NCBI GenBank assembly: GCA_026984935.1
Contig: JALSRD010000059.1
Coordinates: forward strand, 10,001-53,948
Direction: 5' to 3'
Origin: Desulfobacterales bacterium
Lineage (GTDB): Bacteria; Desulfobacterota; Desulfobacteria; Desulfobacterales; JALSRD01
DNA length: 43,948 bases
The notes below the pieces were generated by a model. It did no database searches. It was not told where the DNA came from and saw only the letters and a list, made by a program, of their open reading frames with translations. The translations under genes were made by a program, and so were the position numbers. The number at the start of each line of letters is the position of its first letter. Positions within the stretch are counted from its first letter, which is position 1. Positions 3,756-25,628 of this stretch are shown in pieces.

Positions 3756-3780
3756 CTAACGGGGAAAGATCGAATTGAGA

Positions 3781-3959
3781 GGACCCCTGCCTAAGTGCCG
3801 TGTTGGCAGGCCTTTGAGCCCTGTTTCAAAGTGGGCGCTTTATGGTTTTTTTAGGCTTTTCTGTACGCGCAGAACTTGCACACCAAAACCAGGAAAAGCT
3901 CCCGTTATGTATGCGTTGGATCAAAGGACATCTTCCAATCACGAGCACGACAGGGGTTT
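3781..3959 (-). ncRNA. ssrS: 6S RNA
   Basis: About 180 nt, the usual size. 6S RNA mimics an open promoter and holds sigma-70 RNA polymerase in stationary phase. Read on the minus strand, the ends pair (3949-3956 with 3784-3791, then a GTGC/CGTG and TTGG/CCAA extension), a long apical hairpin closes with 3890-3899 pairing 3854-3863, and the central bubble's 3' side carries the small hairpin CTTTGA (3826-3831 region) with TCAAAG (3812-3817 region). The segment AAAAGCCTAAAA after the apical stem resembles the E. coli GAAGCCTTAAAA segment at the same place, and the final segment resembles the E. coli 3' end. Location just downstream of zapA matches E. coli zapA-ssrS. Ends are estimated to within several bases. 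Confidence 0.85.
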
Positions 3960-23611: not shown

Positions 23612-23936
23612 AATTGTCTTCTTCCGGTCCGTTAACCATCGTTGACAGACCCGTAAAAAAGTCGGTTTTGAACGGATTGCAAGACTTTTCGTGTGCGAAA
23701 AGCCCGGACTTTTACGAAATCATCATCGTTGGCTTCGCTGTCCGGGCCGGCATGCAGATATGCAAAGTAATCCATCCCGGCCCGCCTGTCCATGCCTATC
23801 CGGCATGCGGACACGATCGCAGCCGCCTGCGGCTCAGCCCGGCTGCAGGACGCTGCGCCGACTTTCAGGCAGCGTTGCCTGTCCGTTTCTGCCGACCACT
23901 CGACTTTTTGCGCCGCATGGAATAAGGTGTCCATAA
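23612..23936. other. Intergenic region with repeat copy A
   Basis: Between divergent genes. It holds the repeat at 23643-23724 and then several short palindromes (for example TGTCC-ATGCC with GGCAT-x2-GGACA at 23788-23816). The promoter of the DUF2156 gene is not clear. Confidence 0.5.
23643..23724. repeat. MITE-like repeat, short copy (A)
   Basis: Its left 50 bases match the left end of copy B (24992-25188) at about six in seven positions, and its right end (CCGGACTTTTACGAA) matches the right end of copy B (CCGGACTTTCCACGAA). The ends are inverted with respect to each other: CGTAAAAAAGTC on the left, GACTTTTACG on the right. Copy A lacks about 115 bases present in the middle of copy B. Confidence 0.7.
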
Positions 23937-24815: not shown

Positions 24816-25212
24816 ATCCGCACGTGAAGCCACCTTCCACCCTGCCATCGAAACCGGTTACCCCTTTCCCGAGTATTTTGCCGGCGCGTGGCGTGTCGCC
24901 GACCGCCAAACCGGTCCCGGTGCTTGACTTGTACCAACTTGTGCCCATGTTAGGTTAAGATCGAGGGACAGCTGTTTTCTGAACCCAACAGTGACAGGCC
25001 CGTAAAAAAAGTCGGTTTCGAGCGGGCTTCAAGACTTTTCATCGAAAAACGCTGTGTAGGGTGGCGGGTTAAGAGCCCCAAGCTGTTTGAGGAGTAAAAC
25101 GACGCGCTCCTGGGATTTGGCGCAAGCCTGCACCGCTCCTGGAAAGGCTTGCGAAAGCGAGAAGTCCGGACTTTCCACGAACTCATTAAGCGTACAATAG
25201 GGGGTTTTAAAA
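24816..25212. other. Intergenic region with repeat copy B
   Basis: About 400 bases without a gene. The right half is the repeat at 24992-25188. At its right border a possible promoter (TTTCCA 25172-25177, 15 bases, TACAAT 25193-25198) would read into the small ORFs that follow; spacing is short. Confidence 0.45.
24992..25188. repeat. MITE-like repeat, long copy (B)
   Basis: A 197-bp version of the repeat at 23643-23724 with the same outer ends and an extra central part of about 115 bases. The terminal inverted sequences (CGTAAAAAAAGTC and GACTTTCCACG) and the absence of any coding capacity fit a non-autonomous mobile element; no transposase is in the window. Confidence 0.65.
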
Positions 25213-25404
25213 ATGCCTGATATATTGAAAAGAGACCGTACCGGTAAATGCGAAGGCGAATGCAGCAACCGTGTTCGCCAAGGTGAAGAGGAACGCCAGG
25301 CGAAAATAAACGCCGAATCTTTTGAGACGCCTGACGCTTATCCGGATGTTCCCTGGGCGTATGCCCGAAATGAACAGCCCGGTGTCTATGGCGGACATGT
25401 TTGA
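25213..25404 (+). CDS. Small hypothetical protein with a CX3C motif
   Basis: 63 residues, not recognised. It is hydrophilic, acidic in the first half, with two cysteines in KCEGEC (residues 12-17) and an aromatic, Pro- and Gly-rich C-terminus (YPDVPWAYARNEQPGVYGG). AGGGGG lies 8 bases before the ATG. It ends 23 bases before the cysteine-rich ORF that follows, so the two may form one transcript ending at the terminator 25601-25628. A long open frame exists on the other strand, but has no ribosome site of comparable quality. Confidence 0.45.
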   Translation: MPDILKRDRTGKCEGECSNRVRQGEEERQAKINAESFETPDAYPDVPWAYARNEQPGVYGGHV

Positions 25405-25427
25405 TGAATGCACAAGGAGGTGCTGCC

Positions 25428-25571
25428 ATGGGTAAGGACAAAAAGAAAAAAAGCGGAAAATCGTCTGCCAAATCGAAATGTTATTACGTGGTTGACGGAT
25501 GTGGGTGCACGATCGGCACATACTGTTGCGACGGTCCCGACATGTCCAGCTGCCGTTTCGATAAATGCTGA
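25428..25571 (+). CDS. Very small cysteine-rich protein
   Basis: 47 residues, too short for usual gene callers and not recognised. AAGGAGGTG sits 5 bases before the ATG, a near-perfect ribosome site. The protein has a Lys/Ser-rich head (residues 3-17, KDKKKKSGKSS and so on) and a tail with seven cysteines at 18, 25, 27, 33, 34, 42 and 47, in the pattern C-x6-C-x-C-x5-CC-x7-C-x4-C, with Gly-rich turns. Such spacing suggests a metal-bound or disulfide-bonded knot, or a modified peptide. A strong terminator follows 30 bases later. No modifying or transport gene is recognisable next to it. Confidence 0.75.
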   Translation: MGKDKKKKSGKSSAKSKCYYVVDGCGCTIGTYCCDGPDMSSCRFDKC

Positions 25572-25600: not shown

Positions 25601-25628
25601 AGACCGGGAGCATTTCCCGGTCTTTTTT
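25601..25628 (+). terminator. Rho-independent terminator after the small cysteine-rich gene
   Basis: A perfect 9-bp stem (AGACCGGGA 25601-25609 with TCCCGGTCT 25615-25623), 5-base loop, then TTTTTT. Confidence 0.93.

Follow-up and report, generated by a model that had tools for sequence, protein, structure and literature searches.

Very small cysteine-rich proteins of a new family in Desulfobacterales, with a possible role in metal binding

A stretch of 43,948 nucleotides from a Desulfobacterales contig, hereafter the window, contains an open reading frame of 47 codons, P0001, which is almost certainly a genuine protein-coding gene. It adds to the known repertoire of sulfate-reducing bacteria a family of very small, apparently well-translated cysteine proteins that is absent from the curated libraries searched. 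The hosts live in the presence of sulfide and metals. Should the tails of these proteins bind metal, they would be the equivalent of a metallothionein with a simple seven-residue repeat, which is easy to test. The family of the adjacent gene, P0002, provides a second untouched target.

Results

P0001 and its expression signals

The translation of P0001 is MGKDKKKKSGKSSAKSKCYYVVDGCGCTIGTYCCDGPDMSSCRFDKC, followed by the stop codon. Its seven cysteines are at positions 18, 25, 27, 33, 34, 42 and 47, exactly as listed in an earlier sequence-only reading of the window. Residues 1–17 form a polar, disordered head, and residues 18–47 a tail that carries the cysteines. The strong ribosome site and the terminator announced in that reading are both present (Table 1). 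The terminator begins 29 nt past the stop codon, and its RNA folds with an energy of −19.1 kcal/mol (z = −2.7). The description of a compact, well-signalled gene is therefore right as to the signals, but P0001 is not a lone gene, as it is the second of a two-gene unit with P0002. Nor is it too small for most gene callers, as had been stated: 47 residues exceed the default minimum of common programs, for example 90 nt in Prodigal.

Table 1. Positions of P0001, its signals and the adjacent gene in the window
Feature	Position	Strand	Remarks
P0002, 63-aa ORF, RDxTGxCxGEC...PGxxGGHV family	25213..25404	+	Stop 23 nt before the P0001 ATG
Shine-Dalgarno AAGGAGGTG	25414..25422	+	5 nt before the P0001 ATG; equivalent motif before 33/33 members
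P0001, 47-aa cysteine-rich protein	25428..25571	+	ORF and translation, homologues, selection, model
Intrinsic terminator	25601..25628	+	Stem 25601-25623, T run to 25628

As a bare ORF, P0001 is not beyond chance. One ORF of 40–60 residues with at least seven cysteines is present in the window, compared with a mean of 0.5 in windows shuffled according to an order-1 Markov model of the window. P0001 stands above chance because it has homologues, is under purifying selection and shares recurrent signals with its relatives. That it is a chance ORF, as the frequency in shuffled windows could suggest, is hardly credible, and is refuted by the homologues described below.

Two branches of one family

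Close relatives of P0001, termed branch A, were found in six other genomes of the order (G029, G015, G001, G166, G199 and G008). Identity to P0001 is 77% in G029, 67% in G015 and 58% in G001, which belongs to the same genus; the G008 copy runs off the end of its contig. Scanning of named genome contigs yielded four relatives, in MAGs carrying the labels Desulfosarcina, Desulfobacterales and Desulfobacteraceae. In the six intact branch A members, six of the seven cysteines of P0001 (18, 25, 27, 33, 34 and 42) are invariant, as is a C-Y-x-V-V-D-x-C-G-C core. The ATG lies a few bases past a GGAGG-type site in all branch A members except the G015 copies. G015 carries two copies of the gene 5 kb apart (L012 6379-6480 and 11439-11573), one with a frame broken near its end and the other with no clear start codon.

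Both genomic checks proposed in the sequence-only reading gave positive results. Relatives with intact frame and cysteines occur in other genomes of the order, and substitutions are biased towards synonymous ones, with dN/dS ratios of 0.09–0.45 among branch A members (Nei-Gojobori method, dS often saturated). Branch A is under purifying selection at the protein level.

Branch B was entered through three weak profile matches (L022, L023 and L024) that were judged real on reading. A profile built from these and applied to further genomes of the order gave a set of 27 distinct proteins of 47–59 residues from 24 genomes. The plan is that of branch A, with a polar variable head and a tail built on C-Y-x-V-V-D-x-C-G-C. 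The tails consist of CCYVVDPCGCYVDPCGCYVDPCCC-like repeats and contain 6–12 cysteines and almost no histidine. The core is often repeated as YVDPCGC or (YV)DPCGC, with CCC at the end, and a C-x(2-4)-D spacing recurs within the tails. The homology of the two branches exceeds what cysteine composition would give, since only 0–2 of 2000 tail shuffles reached the real score. Alignment of the two profiles with hhalign gave an E-value of 3e-10 over a 16-column core (CYxVVDxCGC). P0001, with its polar head and C-Y-x-V-V-D-x-C-G-C tail, is a member of this new family.

Family members are 45–59 residues long. The net charge of the head varies from −6 to +7, and the basic Lys/Ser head that had been taken as a feature is peculiar to the window's branch. 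Among the 33 members collected from both branches, all are preceded by a ribosome site and at least 20 are followed within 130 nt by a terminator, defined as a perfect stem of 6 bp or more and then Ts. No head contains a signal peptide or hydrophobic segment, and at most 5 of 15 head residues are hydrophobic. The stop codon is TGA in 15 members, TAA in 11 and TAG in 7; as three different stop codons are in use, selenocysteine read-through of a terminal TGA was rejected. Two or three copies of the gene per genome are present in G207, G188, G291 and G015. In G324, the family member has another cysteine-rich ORF, ending in CCETFCCCC (L099 6857-7012), at a distance of 0.7 kb on the other strand; the two do not align.

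Distribution and database searches

In 297 genomes across the phylum, about a dozen of which are from the order, the branch B profile retrieved only the window's own member. Weak matches outside the order (L091-L097) were found on reading not to be family members. As judged from these searches, the family is apparently restricted to the Desulfobacterales in the genomes sampled.

P0001 has no match in Pfam (E ≤ 1), NCBIfam, the PHROGs phage families or PADLOC, and no Pfam or NCBIfam family fits 23 of its relatives. Sequences of the PDB and plasmids contain no match to the family, and no description of it was found in a search of the literature outside subscription journals. The family is undescribed in the curated libraries searched, in agreement with the earlier suggestion of an undescribed small-protein gene, now with homologues of intact frame and cysteines.

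Structure model

In the AlphaFold model of P0001, the tail forms a three-stranded β-structure with pLDDT values of about 80–90 and the head is disordered, the pTM being only 0.39. With this model of low pTM, Foldseek gave no match below an E-value of 1.4, and comparison to solved structures with VIA-align gave Z-scores of at most 2.7. A predicted structure of so short and cysteine-rich a chain proves little.

P0002 and the gene neighbourhood

We infer that P0001 and P0002 are probably co-transcribed as a two-gene message. The P0002 family has an invariant C-x-G-E-C motif and a C-terminal GGHV, is usually encoded by a stand-alone gene and is absent from the curated family libraries searched. 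Among 389 genomes of the order, 70 have it; in a phylum-wide draw of 128 genomes it was found in two only, both of the order. The structure model of P0002 is poor (pLDDT 60).

The two genes are adjacent in the window and in G008, and within 1 kb of each other in G188 and G324, where a further ORF (PilZ-like by reading) lies between them. For unlinked genes, chance would bring the two together far less often than this, in four of the dozen or so genomes that have both families. In G008, the P0002 copy beside the cysteine gene (L014, G008:C231, minus strand 104-283) is frame-shifted near its start, and may be broken or misassembled.

P0002 apart, no neighbour is conserved from genus to genus, which is what a self-sufficient protein would show. 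The neighbours of P0001 in the window are a phosphatidylglycerol lysyltransferase-like gene and a HEAT-repeat/response-regulator gene. Elsewhere, family genes lie near HtpG-, DnaJ-, RdgB- or ATP-grasp-like genes (by reading), and a 97-aa gene is found 3' of the family gene in three close relatives only. Genes for metal resistance, as assigned by sequence reading, accompany family members only in isolated instances: in G119 a copper-ATPase-like gene lies at 235 nt, and G185 has a cation-efflux-like gene. Of Rfam elements, only one cobalamin riboswitch was found beside family genes, and it lies at the distant edge of its locus. A 6S RNA is encoded elsewhere in the window, at 3780-3959 on the minus strand.

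Directly upstream of P0002, positions 24992-25190 are occupied by a dispersed DNA repeat of about 170–200 bp, which is not an Rfam family. It recurs at least 38 times more in the same genome, as copies or fragments of 66–86% identity, and a fragment lies in the window at 23643-23690.

Discussion

The most likely function of P0001, with about an even chance of being right, is that of a cytosolic, metallothionein-like thiolate metal binder. Its thiolates, in the reduced state and arranged as C-x-C and C-C pairs at intervals of 4–7 residues, would serve as ligands for a small cluster of soft metal ions. With Zn, Cd, Cu(I), Ni or Fe as the candidate metals, such a cluster would buffer or sequester the metal. 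The disordered polar head would keep the tail soluble, and the strong ribosome site would drive translation, in this genome from a short message shared with P0002. Since these bacteria reduce sulfate anaerobically and their cytosol would be reducing, the most plausible role of the paired thiols (C-x-C, C-C and CCC) is to bind soft metals. The cytosolic reduced state, the binding of metal and the buffering role are all presumed. The sequence-only reading had left the choice between a metal-binding protein, a disulfide-stabilised miniprotein and a precursor peptide; the first is favoured here and the other two are disfavoured. Against metal binding, metal-resistance genes are not recurrent neighbours, known metallothioneins give no match, and the family conserves Y, V, V, D and P residues beyond what a plain metallothionein would need.

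The aromatic and aliphatic residues among those conserved point to a possible binding surface, and P0001 could tentatively be seen as a small redox, persulfide or metal-delivery adaptor working with the CxGEC protein P0002 rather than as a general metal buffer. Linkage of the two genes in four genomes is far commoner than random position in a genome of 3–7 Mb would give, and neither family was found outside the order. However, the majority in each family are stand-alone genes, only 4 of about 12 genomes with both show linkage, and the structure model of P0002 is poor. In a bolder version of this reading, of similarly low probability, sulfate reducers would use the two proteins together to handle metal or reactive sulfur, as the two components of a system confined to the order and based on the new repeat YVDPCGC and a new metal-cluster geometry. 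A secreted or envelope miniprotein stabilised by disulfides, such as an antimicrobial peptide, would fit the cysteine pattern and the β-rich model. It is improbable given the lack of export signals in all 33 heads, the odd number of cysteines in P0001, their variation from 6 to 12 between members and the anaerobic sulfate-reducing lineage. The runs of cysteine codons and the terminator just past the stop also recall a leader ORF that regulates a downstream gene through ribosome stalling and attenuation. This is very improbable, as residues other than cysteine are conserved at the protein level and the downstream gene is not conserved across genera.

The layout of head and tail, together with the C-x(2-4)-D spacing of branch B, also fits the precursor of a ribosomally made modified peptide, in which the head would be a leader and the Cys/Asp tail would be cross-linked by a radical-SAM enzyme. 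SCIFF (six cysteines in 45 residues) and CX3D ranthipeptide precursors indeed resemble the family in size, cysteine number and repeated Cys/Asp motif. Such a function is nevertheless unlikely for P0001. Its family has a conserved tail and a variable head, the opposite of leader and core, and no maturase travels with the genes, although one encoded elsewhere could conceivably act on the product. The NCBIfam profiles of SCIFF and ranthipeptide precursors match neither P0001 nor 23 relatives. The window contains no ORF of at least 200 residues with CxxxCxxC; only two of 14 other wide loci do, and in both the ORF resembles an unrelated radical-SAM enzyme. The G222 member has two radical-SAM genes in a cluster that begins 645 nt downstream of it, but this cluster is directly preceded by a separate 66-aa cysteine-containing ORF that is the likelier substrate. 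This ORF (L129 4464-4664, with a RPQLIVLGRGTPEENVLAGCK head) and the two radical-SAM genes look like a peptide-modification cluster in its own right, and the cluster was rejected as a maturase of the P0001 family since it has its own candidate precursor. Matches to the SCIFF maturase model (TIGR03974) in the window's own genome are far below the cut-off. Of these three matches, two flank a HemB-like gene, and the pair was set aside as apparently belonging to haem synthesis. A graspetide, considered on account of two ATP-grasp-like genes near the G029 copy, was also rejected, as these genes are absent around the G166 and G199 copies.

As a putative metal binder, P0001 resembles the bacterial metallothioneins (SmtA/BmtA, PF02069), which are likewise tiny, cytosolic and rich in cysteines with C-x-C pairs, the thiolate binding of metal being a proposal for P0001. 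The new family differs by its near lack of histidine, the spacing of its cysteines, the repeated YVDPCGC unit and the disordered polar head. PF02069 has no match in P0001, in 23 relatives or in the window's own genome, whereas the control genome of Synechococcus elongatus gives one. By this profile comparison, P0001 falls outside the bacterial metallothionein family. The CPxCG-type small zinc-ribbon proteins of archaea are also very short, cysteine-based, conserved and often missed; the present family has CGC and CCC motifs instead of CPxCG knuckles.
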